This document shows positions 199 through 19,031 of a stretch of 23,589 bases of DNA, in pieces. The notes under the pieces were generated by a model, which saw only the letters and a program-made list of their open reading frames with translations, made no database searches and had not been told where the DNA came from. Position 1 is the first letter of the stretch. The number at the start of each line of letters is the position of its first letter. Source of the stretch: Candidatus Desantisbacteria bacterium CG1_02_38_46 (GTDB lineage: Bacteria; Desantisbacteria; UBA1551; UBA1559); assembly GCA_001871015.1 (NCBI GenBank), contig MNUO01000002.1:1-23589 (forward strand), read 5' to 3'. Both the position numbers and the translations under genes were made by a program.

Positions 199-765
199 TT
201 ATTTGCTCAGATGTCTGGAGTTGCGCAATACTTCTATGTCGGCAATGACCGCCACCGGAGGCCTGGCCGCAAGAGTCTTTTTTGTGTTCTTATGAGAAAG
301 AGCGGCAATCGGCGAGGTATAGCCATTCATTGACGGTGCTGTAGGATAGGAGATATAAGGAATCTTTACTTTGTCGCATGCATATTTTACAAGGTCATTG
401 ATTGTCCCCGAACCAACAGCAACTGCAAAGTCAAATTTCCCCTTTATTTCTCTTGCAAGTCTATCAGCGAGCTCCTGCTGGGCATGCAAATTCTTACCAC
501 GAGGCGTAATGAATACTTCAACACTCACTTTAAGTCCCTTTTCAGCCAGGTATTCGGAAAGTAACTCTCCTGCAACAGCAAAGGTATTTTTGTCCCCCAC
601 AATAAGGACCTTACGCCCTAACGCGGAATCCGCTGCGAACTTCAGCAGGCACTCCTGCGCATTCGTCCCAACATAGATTTCTCTTGTCGGAATAAAGTGC
701 ACCCTGCCGCACTTGCAATGAATTTTCTTCCCCAGAAATTTTTTCAAATCTGACGAAAACCCCAT
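199..765 (-). pseudogene. Glycerol-1-phosphate dehydrogenase (AraM/EgsA-like), C-terminally truncated
   Basis: The 188 residues match the NAD-binding half of the iron-containing-alcohol-dehydrogenase-like G1P dehydrogenase family, which reduces dihydroxyacetone phosphate to glycerol 1-phosphate. Visible signatures are the GSGTINDLVKYA nucleotide-binding loop and the downstream YPTAPSMNGYTSP segment. The family runs to roughly 350-400 residues; here the frame stops right after a VIADIEVLRNS motif, before the helical domain that supplies the metal ligands, and no continuation was found in 1-198. It is therefore probably inactive. GTG at 768 and ATG at 765 overlap the stop of the winged-helix gene upstream (TGATG), so translation would be coupled; the ATG is chosen. 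The truncation could also be an assembly or recombination junction. Confidence 0.75.
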
Positions 766-989
766 CACTCTTTATTGTTTATCACAGTATAATATTTCTG
801 ATTTCTTGCCCTCGGAGCAGGATTTGTGCGTCCCAAATTTCCTTCTTCCACCATCTTTTTAAGATAGTTATTGACGAGGTATATCTTGTTTATCCCTAAT
901 TCAAAAGATAATTCCTTAGCAGAGCGAGAGGCCCTACACAACTCAATAATTTGTTCTTTTATTTCTTTATAGGTTCTATCCGAAGTCAT
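765..989 (-). CDS. Small winged-helix DNA-binding protein
   Basis: A 74-residue basic protein. Its centre (KEQIIELCRASRSAKELSFE, then LGINKIYLVNNYLKKMVEEG) has the helix-turn-helix layout of a winged helix, followed by a wing-like NLGRTNPAPRARNQKYYTV strand. No effector domain is present. Several in-frame starts lie upstream (1016, 1007, 1001). The ATG at 989 is preferred because it overlaps the preceding CxxCxxCC gene by only 14 bases and begins just before the recognisable domain. It is translationally coupled to the truncated dehydrogenase downstream. Role as a local regulator is inferred from size and fold only. Confidence 0.6.
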   Translation of the reverse strand: MTSDRTYKEIKEQIIELCRASRSAKELSFELGINKIYLVNNYLKKMVEEGNLGRTNPAPRARNQKYYTVINNKE

Positions 990-2200: not shown

Positions 2201-3490
2201 TCACACAACTGGAACCGTTGTTGCACCATCCAAGAGAAAAGATATTGTTGCTTTTTTCCCTTTAATAGCAATGGCATCGTCAATTGCCTGCTGAATATTA
2301 TGATATGGCTTTATGAACATTTTCTTTACTTTCTCATCCGGCAATCCTGTTGCTGCCCAGAATTCACTCCGCGATGCAAGTTCAGCAATCCGCTTTGCCT
2401 TATGAGCACCTAATTTATAGGGCTCTGTATTGACTTTGTGAATCACCTCTTGCGGTGTCCTGCAGGAAAACAGAATCTCAGAATAATGTCCCTCTCCAAG
2501 CCCTCTCTTGCATGCTGAGACAAGGATGAGAATGCCGCTGTCCTTCAAAATACGTTTCCCGTTTTCAATTGCCTGCTGAGACTGATAAAAATTGATGTCC
2601 CAGGGCGATTTAGCAACTGTAACAACAATATCCGCCTTATTCTCTGCTTTCGCTGCAAATACCTCGTTTACTTTTTCCAGTGCTAACAAGTGCGAATCGA
2701 TGATATTGCCAGATTCTGCAGCATAAATCTTTCTATTATGACTCAGGACAACCTGTATTGAGAAAATTTCTTTGTCAAACAGTTCCAGCCCTTCTATAAT
2801 ATCTTCATCCACAGGGTTTCCCTCAAGTTTCAATGAGGTTGCATCAGGACTGAGCGCAAAGCGATGGTTTGCCTCAATGGTTTTATACGAAGCTATACCG
2901 GGTATAATTGCTTTTCTTCCACCAGTATAACCTGCAAAATAGTGTGGTTCCACTGAACCAATGATTAAGATTTTGTCCGACTCAATTGCAAGGCGATTGA
3001 TATAAACTTCAGTTTTTCTGGATGTAATACCAATGTAAACCATATCTTCATCCCTTTTTGCATTGTGGATGAAGAGCGCTTGAGAAAACCTGGAAAAATA
3101 TTTTCCAAAAATCAACTTAAGGTCGCCGCGAGTTGGTGCTCGATGTGCCCCTGTTGCAACAAGGAACTTAAACTTGTCTCCTGATATATATCCGCTCAAG
3201 AATTCCAATATCTTAGCAGTAGGACAGGGTTTTGTGGCATCGTTTAATATAACAAGTACATTTTCTGCATCAAACAGAAACCGTTCCAGCGGCGGCTTGT
3301 GCAGCCGAAAGTAGGCACTCTGCCGAAAGTAGGCACTCTGGAAGTGGAAGTGCGGAACCGATAATGCTTTACGCAGCACCTCAGTTTCATCACTAACTTT
3401 TACCCTCTTGGGGGAGAGGACATCGAGGACATTCCCCTGTTTTATATTTACTTCAATTGTTGAATTATTATAATCCAATTTTATTTTCAT
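2201..3490 (-). CDS. larA: LarA-like nickel-pincer racemase/epimerase family protein
   Basis: A 429-residue member of the lactate racemase (DUF2088/LarA) family, whose members racemise or epimerise 2-hydroxy acids using a nickel-pincer nucleotide covalently held by a lysine. Visible elements: the NDATKPCPT segment (83-91), where family members usually read DxTR, so the arginine is replaced by lysine; ATGAHR with H116; EPHYFAGYTGGRK with H183 and the cofactor-binding K193; and NH209. Substrate cannot be read from sequence; close relatives act on lactate, malate or sugar acids. No larB/larC/larE cofactor genes lie in the window. Residues 51-62 contain a duplicated six-residue unit. It is the last gene of the DUF1844-acyP-vanZ-barrel-yacP-larA operon, 12 bases after yacP, with no clear ribosome site of its own. 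Confidence 0.85.
   Translation of the reverse strand: MKIKLDYNNSTIEVNIKQGNVLDVLSPKRVKVSDETEVLRKALSVPHFHFQSAYFRQSAYFRLHKPPLERFLFDAENVLVILNDATKPCPTAKILEFLSGYISGDKFKFLVATGAHRAPTRGDLKLIFGKYFSRFSQALFIHNAKRDEDMVYIGITSRKTEVYINRLAIESDKILIIGSVEPHYFAGYTGGRKAIIPGIASYKTIEANHRFALSPDATSLKLEGNPVDEDIIEGLELFDKEIFSIQVVLSHNRKIYAAESGNIIDSHLLALEKVNEVFAAKAENKADIVVTVAKSPWDINFYQSQQAIENGKRILKDSGILILVSACKRGLGEGHYSEILFSCRTPQEVIHKVNTEPYKLGAHKAKRIAELASRSEFWAATGLPDEKVKKMFIKPYHNIQQAIDDAIAIKGKKATISFLLDGATTVPVV
3304..3339. repeat. In-frame 18-bp tandem duplication inside larA
   Basis: The unit GCCGAAAGTAGGCACTCT occurs twice back to back, giving QSAYFR-QSAYFR in the protein near residues 51-62. The six-codon length keeps the frame. 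The unit is more GC-rich than the surroundings and lies in a loop between the N-terminal strands and the NDATKP segment. Confidence 0.85.
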
Positions 3491-5849: not shown

Positions 5850-5878
5850 ATTATACCATATCCCTGGCTTACTTTAAA
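5850..5878 (-). promoter_or_regulatory. Extended -10 promoter of the DUF1844-larA operon
   Basis: TGGTATAAT on the minus strand (TATAAT is the complement of 5850-5855) is an extended -10 element. A weak -35 TTTAAA (complement of 5873-5878) lies 17 bases upstream, overlapping the last codons of the preceding URO-D gene. The leader is about 26 bases and contains the GAGGAGG ribosome site. Confidence 0.6.
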
Positions 5879-6930
5879 CTCCCTGTTTCCTGGTAGAATG
5901 CAAGGATATTCTCAACCGGGACATCGACCTGGAAATTGTGTGTGGGGGCGAGAATATATCCGCCGTCTTTACCCAGCACTTCAATTCTCTCGCTGACTTC
6001 ACGATGAACATCTTTTGTTGTTCCTCTGGGCATTGTTTGCTGGACATCCACTGCGCCGTGGAAACAAAGCTGTCTGCCGAATTTCTGCTTGAGTTCTGCA
6101 GGCACCATTCCCTTGGCCTGAACTTGAATCGGATTTAAAATATCAATACCAATTTCAATCAAATCAGGAATGACTTCTCGTATTGAACCACAGGAATGAA
6201 ACATTGCCTTGATATTATAGTCGTGACACAGCCGGGTATATTTTTTCAAATAAGGAAATACAAATTTCTGCAACATCTGCGAGGAAATGAGCAGCCCGTT
6301 CTGCGTACCCAGATCATCGCCAATCAGAAGAATATCCACCTTACCTTCTGATATTTCAAAAATACGCCTGTTTATCTCCAGATAAAACTCGCTTATTCTG
6401 TCAAACATTACCTGCACGAAATCAGGATTTAGCGCAAGGTCGGTCATCATTTTTTCCATTCCCCTCAGGTAAATTCCCTCATGCAGAACAGTGGTACGAT
6501 TTGTGCGCTCATCACAGACAACGATGGCATAATCACGATATTTATTACAAAGGATATTTATTTCGGAGTAATCAAACCAACCAGGATTTGGCCAGTTGAA
6601 TTTTTCAAGATCGGCAATGGACCCTGCATCGCCAAGTGGCGAATGGGAAACTTCCTCATAGATCGCGTCACCTGTCTTGATTCTCTTGCGTCTTACCTGC
6701 CAGATATCCTCAGTACTTCCATCTGAAAAAGTGCGCAGTTGTGGACCAGTGTATCGAGGGAAAATATAGCGCAAATCAACGCCGAGTTTCTCAAGCAATT
6801 TATCTCGGCCCTGAATCCCGAAATGGGCAAGAAGTTTCCTGTCAACATCTTTTGTTGCCCAGTAATCCACCGGCACCCGGTCAGGTTTACGATGAGCAAT
6901 TGTTACCAATACTCTTTCCTTGTGGTTCAT
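5869..6930 (-). CDS. Uroporphyrinogen-decarboxylase-family protein (methyltransferase-like)
   Basis: A 353-residue TIM-barrel protein opening with MNHKERVLVTIAHRKPDRVP, the usual start of the cobamide-methyltransferase-like branch of the URO-D superfamily. FHSCGS near residue 246 gives the H-x-C zinc motif of corrinoid-dependent methyltransferases, and CFHGAVDVQQTMPRGT and YILAPTHNFQVDVP are the expected C-terminal motifs. True heme URO-D is unlikely given these features; the substrate is unknown. No corrinoid protein gene is nearby. The gene is monocistronic-looking, driven by the promoter at 6943-6971 with an unusually short leader, and its 3' end contains the promoter of the next operon. 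Confidence 0.85.
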   Translation of the reverse strand: MNHKERVLVTIAHRKPDRVPVDYWATKDVDRKLLAHFGIQGRDKLLEKLGVDLRYIFPRYTGPQLRTFSDGSTEDIWQVRRKRIKTGDAIYEEVSHSPLGDAGSIADLEKFNWPNPGWFDYSEINILCNKYRDYAIVVCDERTNRTTVLHEGIYLRGMEKMMTDLALNPDFVQVMFDRISEFYLEINRRIFEISEGKVDILLIGDDLGTQNGLLISSQMLQKFVFPYLKKYTRLCHDYNIKAMFHSCGSIREVIPDLIEIGIDILNPIQVQAKGMVPAELKQKFGRQLCFHGAVDVQQTMPRGTTKDVHREVSERIEVLGKDGGYILAPTHNFQVDVPVENILAFYQETGSLK

Positions 6931-15130: not shown

Positions 15131-15955
15131 TTATTTACCACAATTAAAAATTTCTCGCTTCAATTTCAAATAGAACTTATAACTTTCAAGCGTTACATCT
15201 GCAGGAGTCCTGTGGTCAATATGAGGAATAAAACCACCCTGGTCCACAATTGGCTTAAGCCGCAATAATTCTTTTTCAATTGCAACGGGCCCCTTGAGAA
15301 GAGCCATCTTGTCAATACCGCCCATCATTAAAACTTTATTTGCGAACATTTCTCTTATCTTTACAGGGTCTGAACCTGCCCTAACCTCAACTGGAAACAT
15401 ACAGTTAATTCCACCTTCCAGAAACTCAGGGATAAGCGGAATTATATTTCCATCGCAATCAGTCCAGATTACATCAATGCCATATTTATGCAGTAAATCC
15501 GTGATTCTTTTATACCGCGGGGTAACAATTTCATGAAACATCCTCGGGCTAATCAAAGGTCCGCTGTTATAACAAATATCCTCCCATCCGCTTGCAAAAT
15601 CAAACTGGATATCTTTCAGCGCCTTTTCTATAACCTTAAGAGATAAATTACAAAGGGTCTCCACCATTTCCTCGACAAGCGAACGGTTATCATAGACCAT
15701 ATATGCAAGATTTTCAAAACCAATCCAGTCCCTGACTTTCCCAATCATACTTCCAAAATAGATGCCCAGCGGATAGTCCCTTTTTCCATATTGTTTTACC
15801 AGTTTATCCCAATTTTCCGGATAGCGTCCCGGTGTATCAGGATTTAATCGCTTAAGGAATTCAAGCCAATCCTGCCTTGTTTTTATTGGAAACTCCAGAT
15901 AATGTGGAATTGTTTTATAGGGGTATCTGCTTGACTTAACTAAAAATTTATCCAT
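15131..15955 (-). pseudogene. URO-D-family protein, C-terminal part after MITE insertion
   Basis: 274 codons cover most of the TIM barrel of a URO-D-superfamily protein. Recognisable parts are DFASGWEDICYNSGPLISPR, IDVIWTDCDGNIIPLIPEFL, INCMFPVEVRAGSDP, MMGGIDKMALLKGP and the end GGFIPHIDHRTPADV. The zinc-binding H-x-C of methyltransferase members is absent; the position reads W-T-D-C-D-G-N, as in a non-methyltransferase branch. The frame now begins in the inserted element: ATG at 15955 with AGGAG four bases upstream, adding about 15 foreign residues (MDKFLVKSSRYPY) before the native KTIPHYLEF. Removing the insertion restores one 367-residue gene from 16333 to 15131. Whether the two pieces assemble is unknown. 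Confidence 0.85.
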
Positions 15956-16007
15956 AATACTCCTAACCACAAAAATAGGAAGTAAGTTAAGTCAAGCAGA
16001 TACCCCT
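15919..16007. mobile_element. 89-bp MITE-like element with perfect terminal inverted repeats
   Basis: Terminal inverted repeats of at least 23 bp (15919-15941 and 15985-16007; starting AGGGGTATCTGCTTGACTTA) are identical. They extend to 25 bp if flanking bases are counted. The flanks carry a direct repeat ATTGTTTTATA (15909-15919 and 16008-16018), i.e. a target duplication of 8-11 bp depending on where the ends are drawn. An internal hairpin (15958-15965 with 15976-15984, one bulge) completes a single long foldback. No coding capacity for a transposase, so it would move in trans. Its precise removal (99 bp net) rebuilds the URO-D gene. Confidence 0.9.
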
Positions 16008-16333
16008 ATTGTTTTATAACCCTTCTTCTGAACTTTTGCCTTTACTTTTTCTCCATCCAGGTAAATAATATGCTCTTCAGTTTCCTCAAGGATCCTGTAT
16101 TCAAATGCTGGAAACAACCCTGTATTCACAGGAACATTTACCCAATTTTCTATACCGAAATATTCATATGCCTTTGTTTCGTCATCAATCTCTTTGGGTA
16201 GACCCTGTTCATGCCAGTTCGGTAAAGTCTCAGCCCAGTACCCAAATTCAAAGTTCGGGATTTTGCTTACCTTTTGAAAGTGCATGCAACCCCTGAATCG
16301 CTCCCTCAGGGTCATCCCATCCTCATTACTCAT
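15992..16333 (-). pseudogene. URO-D-family protein, N-terminal part before MITE insertion
   Basis: 113 codons beginning MSNEDGMTLRERFRGCMHFQ, the usual N-terminus of non-heme URO-D-family proteins, and continuing through FEFGYWAETLPNW and YEYFGIENWVNVPV to AKVQKKGYKTI. After that it runs into the inserted element as G-V-S-A and a TGA stop. ATG at 16333 has GGAG five bases upstream; TTG at 16336 is the other option. It sits 49 bases after the MFS gene on the same strand and was probably co-transcribed with it; a URO-D-family enzyme beside an importer suggests a joint catabolic role, which is inference. Confidence 0.85.
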
Positions 16334-16382
16334 CAAATCTCCATAAAATTACACAAACTTGAAACAACATCTAAATTTAGGA

Positions 16383-17621
16383 TTATCTCTGCGGTTCCGG
16401 GATTTTCCAAAGCAATACCAATCCAATTACTGCAAAACCTAAAAGAGCAAGCACAGCCAACCGATACCTCATAACCCCCAGCGGTTCTCCAAGCCAGGTA
16501 ATAAGACCCCATGTAAGTGGGCCAATAATTGAAGCTGATTTGCTGGTCACTCCAAATAATCCAAATATTTCACCTCGTTTTTCAATTGGTGCAAGTTTAG
16601 TCACAAGCGCCCGGGTTGCTACCCAGGTTGAACCAATGCTCACACCTGAAAGTGGTCCCACAATCCAGAAAACATTTTTATGCAATATTGCTGCAGCAAA
16701 TAAAAATGCGATGCACCACATTACCATTACTATCGCCCAGGCTTTCTTTGCGCCGATTTTATCTGTCACATATCCAAAGGCAAATGAACCAAAAATTGCA
16801 AATGTTGCTGAAAGAATTAAAAAGAACCTGATGTCCCCATCTGCCATCATCACTGCCTTTTTTGCGTAAATTGAAATAAAGGGAATCGTGGTGTTGACCG
16901 CATCAAGGCAGATAAAATTTGCAATTAAAAATGTAAAAAGTCCGGGATATTTGTGACGATTTACAAAAGTGTCCTTTATCCTTCTCAATGCATCTTTAAT
17001 CCCCGCACATGAAAAATCCCCCTGCGCTTGTCTGCGATAAGCAGACGCAGGGAGATTAAATTGTTTATCCTTAACAAATAAAAAACAGGGCAGGGAAAAA
17101 AGCAGGAAAAAAATAGCAGTTGGTATAAACGCTGCCTGCCTTCCACCAACATCAACAAATGGCTTTACAAGTATCAGCCCGACAATTGTTCCCACATACC
17201 CCAAACTTATACCAAACCCTGAGACTCTTCCAATTTCTTTTGGGCTTGCAATTTCAGGAAGAAGAGAATTATAGAAGACAATCCCAACCTGATAACCAAA
17301 GTTGGCGATAACAAAAAACAAGAGCCCGACGAGTAAATTAGAGGTCAAACCCATAAATGCAGTGAATGCAATTGATAGGAGCGTAAAAGAAATTAAAAAT
17401 GACATACGCTTTCCCAGCCCATCTGAAACAGCTCCCATTATCGGTTCAGAAATCGCTGCAAGAATCATTGAGCCGGCAATTGCAATGCTGTAATAAATAT
17501 CTCTGCCACCCTTGTCAACTGTAACCCATAATGCAAAATACAAGGTGATAATGTTTATTGTGAAAATCGTATTTGCTAAATCATACATTCCCCAGGAAAG
17601 TATTACAAGTTTCTTTCTCAA
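16383..17621 (-). CDS. MFS transporter of the UMF1/Atg22-like group
   Basis: A 412-residue inner-membrane carrier with twelve predicted helices. The opening WGMYDLANTIFTINIITLYF resembles the W-x-x-Y-D-x-A-N motif of UMF1-type MFS proteins. MFS motif A-like segments are seen after helix 2 (GAVSDGLGKRMSFL) and after helix 8 (FGYVTDKIGAKKAW). The cytoplasmic loop between helices 6 and 7 contains NLPASAYRRQAQGDFSCAG, coded by a palindromic repeat (17020-17052) and probably an insertion. The start is a TTG at 17621 overlapping the stop of the upstream gene (TTGA) with AAAAGGG as ribosome site. Substrate unknown; neighbours suggest a sugar or sugar acid. Confidence 0.85.
   Translation of the reverse strand: MRKKLVILSWGMYDLANTIFTINIITLYFALWVTVDKGGRDIYYSIAIAGSMILAAISEPIMGAVSDGLGKRMSFLISFTLLSIAFTAFMGLTSNLLVGLLFFVIANFGYQVGIVFYNSLLPEIASPKEIGRVSGFGISLGYVGTIVGLILVKPFVDVGGRQAAFIPTAIFFLLFSLPCFLFVKDKQFNLPASAYRRQAQGDFSCAGIKDALRRIKDTFVNRHKYPGLFTFLIANFICLDAVNTTIPFISIYAKKAVMMADGDIRFFLILSATFAIFGSFAFGYVTDKIGAKKAWAIVMVMWCIAFLFAAAILHKNVFWIVGPLSGVSIGSTWVATRALVTKLAPIEKRGEIFGLFGVTSKSASIIGPLTWGLITWLGEPLGVMRYRLAVLALLGFAVIGLVLLWKIPEPQR
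17020..17052. repeat. Palindromic repeat inside the MFS gene
   Basis: Two nested stems: CCCTGC (17020-17025) with GCAGGG (17047-17052) and GTCTGC (17030-17035) with GCAGAC (17041-17046), around a GATAA loop, with four unpaired bases on one side. It encodes the loop segment SAYRRQAQG without breaking the frame. Confidence 0.75.
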
Positions 17622-18346
17622 TGCCCTTTTAATCTAACAGCTGCATCGCCCTCAAAATAGAGATAGTGCCCGCGGGAAACAAAAATAAAATCTCTTTCTC
17701 CTTTTGGAACTTCTAATCTGTCAAAATATATCTCAATCCATTCTAGTGGATAGGTCTGCACATAAATCCTGTCTTCTTTTGATAGGTCATCCGTGACAAC
17801 GCCCAGGAAACTGTGAACCGCCTTCTTCACATCGAGCATAGCGACCTTCAACTCCTGTGGCTTGCTAATGTCCAGCCCTGCAAAGTCAATAAGATGATAT
17901 TTATCAGTGCGACACTGGGTAATAAACAGGCGCACCTCTAAATTATTTTCGTTATTCAGGAATGGGTTAAGATTGAATACTGCTATATCCCATTCATTGC
18001 GCGGATTCATGTGGTAGCGGGTTTGCCAGGTTCCATCTTTATCTTTTGTTTGAATTTGTACCCCAACTTTCCCTGGTATAGGCTTCCATCTTTCTTCTAT
18101 TCTTTCAAACCCCTTCATTCTGATTACAAGCCTTGCATTTTTTATCTTTTCTTCTCTAGAAAACTTTAAAGTTAAAGAAGATTGATGAAAAGCCCTGAAA
18201 GACTTAGAATCTTTTTTCTTTAAAAGAGAAGTTACATCCTTCCCCTTTTCATCTACTGCCAAAACAGGTCCTTTTGGATTTTTATAACTTAAGACATTTC
18301 CATTTTCATCACAAGAAATCTTTGTCCCCTGTTTGATTAAGGTCAA
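17618..18346 (-). pseudogene. C-terminal part of an unrecognised secreted-type protein
   Basis: 242 codons opening directly after an in-frame TAA, with only a TTG available as start and no ribosome site, so the 5' end is probably missing or frame-shifted. The product is rich in beta strands (ARLVIRMKGFERIEERWKPI, KVGVQIQTKDKDGTWQTRYH, LEVRLFITQCRTDKYHLIDF). It ends with PKGERDFIFVSRGHYLYFEG, a closing pattern like that of the C-termini of FG-GAP/CRTAC-type extracellular proteins. No domain was named with certainty. It overlaps the preceding fragment by 38 bases in another frame and is followed by the coupled MFS start, so its end is still part of that operon. Confidence 0.5.
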
Positions 18347-19031
18347 TTATTCTGTGGACGCCCGCGCCCAGTGCAAGTTTGTCCAGAAGGTTTAATTTGG
18401 TTCTAAGGCTCAACCTGTCAGAGCCCATCATGTAATCGGCAAGAAGATTGAGGGGGTCATAATATCCTTCCAGATAATTCCTGTAACCGCCCTCGACTGT
18501 ACCCCAGGAAGTCCTGTACCCGAACAGAGCATTGTAAACAAAGTTGTTCCACTGAAAAGTCTGATTCATAGTATAAGAAGGAAAGAGCGTCACATTATAT
18601 ATCCATGCGGGACCGTAATCGCCTTTCAGGTTAAGATAAATTTCTTCTCTGTTCCAGTTAACGCCCCCGGTATTTGCCCCTGTTGTACTTCTTATGTGCC
18701 CTTTCGCATCTATTGACAGGCCACCGGTTATCCCCGTTACATAAAGAGCGGGTGGAAGTTCGTCTTCGCTATACGGGACTACTTTTTCTACTTTTCCCCT
18801 TCTTGCCTCAACTAAAGTGTTATCTCTATCGCTTGTTTTTTTATCTGAAGTGGTGGCTAAAAGTTCATATTTATAAAATCCTTCTTCTACTATTTTGCCT
18901 TTGCCGTCTTTTCCGTCCCAGGTAAATTTATACTGTCCTTCTTTGAGAGTGCCGAGCTTTTTCTCCAGAAGCATAATATTTTTCATATCAAAAATTCTTA
19001 CCGTTACTATAACCTCTGTATCTTTTAGCAT
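18309..19031 (-). pseudogene. FlgD-Ig-like / outer-membrane barrel protein, internal fragment
   Basis: 240 codons. Residues 1-65 are an FlgD-type immunoglobulin-like domain (EVIVTVRIFD, GQYKFTWDGKDGKGKIVEEG, FYKYELLA). The remainder reads like strands of a large outer-membrane barrel with many aromatic residues (VNWNREEIYLNLKGDYGPAW, SYTMNQTFQWNNFVYNALFG, GGYRNYLEGYYDPLNLLADY). The in-frame sequence S-I-L-T-F-D before the first ATG extends the domain upstream to about 19049, where a stop occurs. So the gene lacks its signal peptide and 5' end, and at the 3' end it breaks off as GDKDFL before the barrel is complete. It is probably not functional. Confidence 0.55.

Follow-up and report, generated by a model that had tools for sequence, protein, structure and literature searches.

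We report a small MITE-like element with terminal inverted repeats whose insertion, accompanied by a target-site duplication, has broken a URO-D-family gene in Candidatus Desantisbacteria bacterium CG1_02_38_46; this insertion is well supported in the window analysed here, the 23,589-nucleotide stretch of contig MNUO01000002.1. Taken as a whole, it is very probable that a trans-mobilised MITE-like element, likely an internal-deletion derivative, split the gene. The repeats, the duplication, the in-frame disruption and the empty sites in relatives are all directly observed. Points against this account are that the host assembly shows neither another copy nor a transposon end that matches, unlike what is found for usual MITEs, and that no transposase with such ends was found. 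The finding is a clear and probably recent case of a mobile element inserting in a bacterial phylum for which few genomes are available, and it leads us to predict a so far unseen transposase with AGGGGTATCTGCTTGACTTAACT ends; otherwise the event, real but ordinary in kind, amounts to the probable local inactivation of one gene whose family has several paralogues.

The element and the interrupted gene

The 89-bp element (15919-16007) was read directly from the sequence. Its inverted repeat comprises 25 nt at 100% complementarity (arms 15917-15941 and 15985-16009, spacing 43 nt), of which 23 bp form the perfect terminal inverted repeats inside the element; the sequence-only reading, which had described an element of 89 bp with perfect terminal repeats of at least 23 bp, is borne out by the direct read and by the repeat search. 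Two sites in the window match a 22-nt arm with up to three mismatches, both of them this element's own, against 0.00 expected from shuffles. The 110-nt stretch that includes the element has a folding z of -9.75, and none of the shuffles was equally stable. Rfam returned for the element only sub-threshold matches to hairpin families, and a promoter and terminator scan found nothing above shuffles.

The element is flanked by the direct repeat ATTGTTTTATA (15909-15919 and 16008-16018). This repeat shares bases with the inverted repeat, so that a symmetric reading yields a 10-bp duplication around an 89-bp element, in which 15909-16017 reads ATTGTTTTAT, then AGGGGTATCTGCTTGACTTAACT ... AGTTAAGTCAAGCAGATACCCCT, then ATTGTTTTAT again. 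The flanking duplication claimed in the sequence-only reading is exact, and its length of 11 bp gives way to 10 bp on account of that overlap. Alternative parses (8 bp with an element of 91 bp, or 6 bp with one of 93 bp) are equally exact, and every parse adds 99 bp, or 33 codons. The exact ends of the element, the length of its duplication and its mobility are all judged from a single copy.

Table 1. Features of the element and of the interrupted gene (positions in the window).
Feature	Position	Strand	Basis
89-bp MITE-like element, AGGGG...CCCCT, carrying no gene	15919..16007	.	direct read, repeat search, flank joining
Left terminal inverted repeat, 23 bp in the element (25 nt if the two bases beside it, 15917 onwards, are counted)	15919..15941	+	
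Right terminal inverted repeat, complementary to the left one without mismatch (25 nt if extended to 16009)	15985..16007	-	
Target-site duplication, copy 1, ATTGTTTTAT	15909..15918	+	
Target-site duplication, copy 2, ATTGTTTTAT	16008..16017	+	
TGA stop within the inverted repeat; the element's only in-frame stop, terminating the upstream fragment	15992..15994	-	
AGGAG (15964-15960), TATT, ATG (15955-15953): start codon preceded by a ribosome-binding-like site; its frame is that of the downstream fragment	15953..15964	-	
URO-D-family gene, upstream fragment: 114 codons beginning at TTG, last 4 residues element-derived	15992..16336	-	
Downstream fragment of the URO-D-family gene, carrying the Pfam URO-D match	15131..15908	-	

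The interrupted URO-D-family gene lies on the minus strand at 15131-16336. Joining its flanks gives a single frame with 368 codons ahead of the stop (367 if counted from Met, the length that had been claimed), reading KGYKTIPHYLEF across the junction, and the rest of the frame carries no further damage. The downstream fragment matches Pfam URO-D with an E value of 2e-9 and shows a weak similarity to MtaA/CmuA that is well under the curated cut-off. Relatives are encoded at 45 loci in named genomes, the best being from a Candidatus Omnitrophota MAG (62% identity). The site is empty in 20 of the 20 intact relatives aligned across the insertion point, the outcome of a check that the sequence-only reading had proposed, and their alignment reveals a conserved motif, (T/S)-I-(P/A)-H, adjoining the site. 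In the AlphaFold model of the closest, 62%-identical relative (pLDDT 92), the insertion point falls between strands 92-96 and 105-108. The invariant N-terminal residues R6, E23 and G38 (relative's numbering throughout) are parted from the remainder of the protein, and the first hundred residues are thereby separated from the part that carries the likewise invariant D253, D255 and H335, which lie past the site.

The insertion is probably recent, since the arms are identical and the frame shows no other damage; the exact duplication, the restored frame and the empty sites in relatives also favour the recent insertion that had been claimed. At least six additional URO-D-family matches occur elsewhere in the host genome, so the loss of one member could be tolerated.

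Several other loci in the window deserve mention in their own right. A second URO-D-family gene (5869-6930, minus strand, 353 residues, Pfam E 2e-20) is intact. A Glycerol-1-phosphate-dehydrogenase-like frame of 189 residues, identified by eye (199-768, minus strand), stops short, with no continuation in any of the three minus-strand frames of 1-330; this is possibly a second broken gene. Two overlapping minus-strand frames (18309-19031 and 17618-18346, together 17618-19031) may be one frameshifted gene.

Search for further copies and for a mobilising transposase

The host assembly (1.73 Mb in 133 contigs, 88% complete) contains one copy of the element, and its 22-nt end, with up to three mismatches allowed, occurs there only at the element locus. 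A search of 144 other genomes for this end gave one lone three-mismatch match (G047), with no second match in that genome, and a related element turned up neither in those 144 genomes nor in one other genome of the same phylum, in 52 genomes from two other phyla, or in plasmid or phage collections. The exact end patterns had no match in viral or GTDB contigs. Three further candidates are ascribed to chance: the nearest end-like match in the host (13/13 at C45:3868-3880) sits inside a UvrD-helicase-like coding sequence with no inverted partner, two 18-nt matches in viral contigs are ordinary phage sequence lacking a second arm, and a 30-nt stretch of G159 that matches at 90% does not have the ends of the element. 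A different repeat occurs in host contig C45, where three tandem copies of the short palindromic unit ATATCAGGACTAAAGTCCTGAGTTAC lie between two large genes (L010 3728-3806).

MITEs are usually multicopy. The further copies expected in this genome and related bins were found neither in the 88%-complete host assembly nor in the other genomes searched, and membership in a MITE family with relatives is, given a single copy in such an assembly, unproven rather than refuted.

Four transposase loci were found in the host: DDE_Tnp_1 genes at C67, C33 and C105 and an IS256-like fragment at C128. All four were rejected as the partner, their surroundings having no GGGGTATC-like ends, and transposases of the ISL3 and IS1595 types were not found in the host. 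The autonomous partner that the sequence-only reading had placed elsewhere in the genome is likewise unproven, not refuted, by four loci without matching ends. Insertion sequences often fall near contig ends in such assemblies, and since three of the four transposase loci lie near contig ends, the parent element may simply be unassembled; either the 12% that the assembly lacks or a loss would account for there being no partner. At one of these loci, C33 (L136), the 580-residue DDE_Tnp_1 transposase lies between two 19-nt perfect inverted copies of CCGATGTTTGTCATGAAAC (1147-1165 and 3108-3126), one of which falls within the terminal part of an Mrp-like ATPase gene.

Stop codon, possible internal start and alternative explanations

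The upstream fragment ends after 114 codons at the TGA (15994-15992) that the element brings in. Genes in the window use TGA as a stop in 10 of 27 cases, which argues that this TGA is a real stop; reading it as Trp opens the frame through the element, but such recoding is unlikely in a genome that uses TGA as a stop. The ATG of the AGGAG-TATT-ATG segment is located 36 nt past the TGA, and its frame is open to the end of the downstream half. A start with a ribosome-binding-like site arises on the minus strand in 1.4% of interior shuffles, and one that is also in frame and open in 0.2%. On that strand the order is the 23-bp repeat, about 20 nt, and AGGAG-TATT-ATG-GAT-AAA; insertion sequences usually show this arrangement of repeat, leader, ribosome-binding site and start at their left end. 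The likeliest source of AGGAG-TATT-ATG would be the leader and start codon of a parent transposase, and the same segment could allow a restart of the downstream fragment.

Such a restart raises the question of whether the insertion is tolerated, with the upstream fragment stopping at the TGA, ribosomes restarting at the element's ATG and the resulting two-part protein still working. The ATG in frame with the downstream half, matched by only 0.2% of interior shuffles, and the otherwise intact state of both gene halves speak for it; nevertheless we consider it improbable, because the segment may simply be what is left of the start of the parent transposase, ribosomes would be impeded by the hairpin, and R6, E23 and G38 would be severed from the remainder. 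The stronger proposal that the built-in stop and ribosome-binding site with start, lying in the host frame, turn a single enzyme into a protein of two translationally coupled parts rather than merely abolishing it is quite improbable. Insertion of exactly 33 codons, in which a single stop breaks the frame, recalls a Rickettsia-type palindromic element (RPE) whose 33 residues would be translated as part of the protein. That stop is TGA, the normal stop of the window genes, so the standard code permits no read-through, and the element is single copy in the assembly; this explanation is extremely improbable. An artefact of assembly or binning, or a structured RNA or regulatory hairpin in place of a mobile element, might be suspected from the draft state of the assembly and the Rfam matches to hairpin families. 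The Rfam scores are all far below the gathering cut-offs, however, and a 10-bp duplication that is exact and falls at a conserved position in a coding sequence, together with empty sites in 20 relatives, is the signature of transposition, so we regard an origin of this kind as highly improbable.

Proposed mechanism and comparison with known systems

We propose that the element is non-autonomous and most likely arose from an insertion sequence by internal deletion, in which one end with the leader and start codon of the transposase gene would have been joined to the other end. A transposase acting in trans would make a staggered cut about 10 bp wide in the URO-D-family gene, and insertion of the element would duplicate ATTGTTTTAT. 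The 99 bp and the TGA stop so added split the gene into two fragments; the full-length protein would no longer be made and its function would presumably be lost.

Like the Rickettsia palindromic elements, which keep the host frame open (PMC10969869), the element is palindromic, lies within a coding gene and adds a whole number of codons; it differs from them in bringing in an in-frame TGA that closes the frame and in not being multicopy. With the IS4 family, whose duplications are about 10 bp (range 7-13 bp; PMC2266710), it shares a duplication of about one helix turn, 10 bp or, in the alternative parse, 8 bp, both within that range. The IS4 subgroups have the terminal bases CAT, CA, -AATR, CT, CW and YT-AA (PMC2266710, Table 1), whereas the ends of the element, AGGGG or TAGGGG, match no subgroup consensus in that table. 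Small elements with terminal inverted repeats and target duplications that inactivate bacterial genes are well known (PMC10969869), and MITEAba12 makes 9-bp target duplications (PMC6382973). Our element resembles these gene-inactivating MITEs in its size class of about 90-115 bp, its terminal inverted repeats, its lack of a gene, its AT-rich target duplication of 9-10 bp and the insertional inactivation. It differs in being single copy with no co-resident parent insertion sequence found in the 88%-complete assembly, and its ends, AGGGGTATCTGC, do not resemble those of the ISAba12 group, GGCTTTGTTGCA. Judged from its sequence, the element appears to belong by its ends to no IS4 subgroup and to behave like a MITE, being short and free of a transposase, with terminal inverted repeats, a target duplication and empty sites in relatives.
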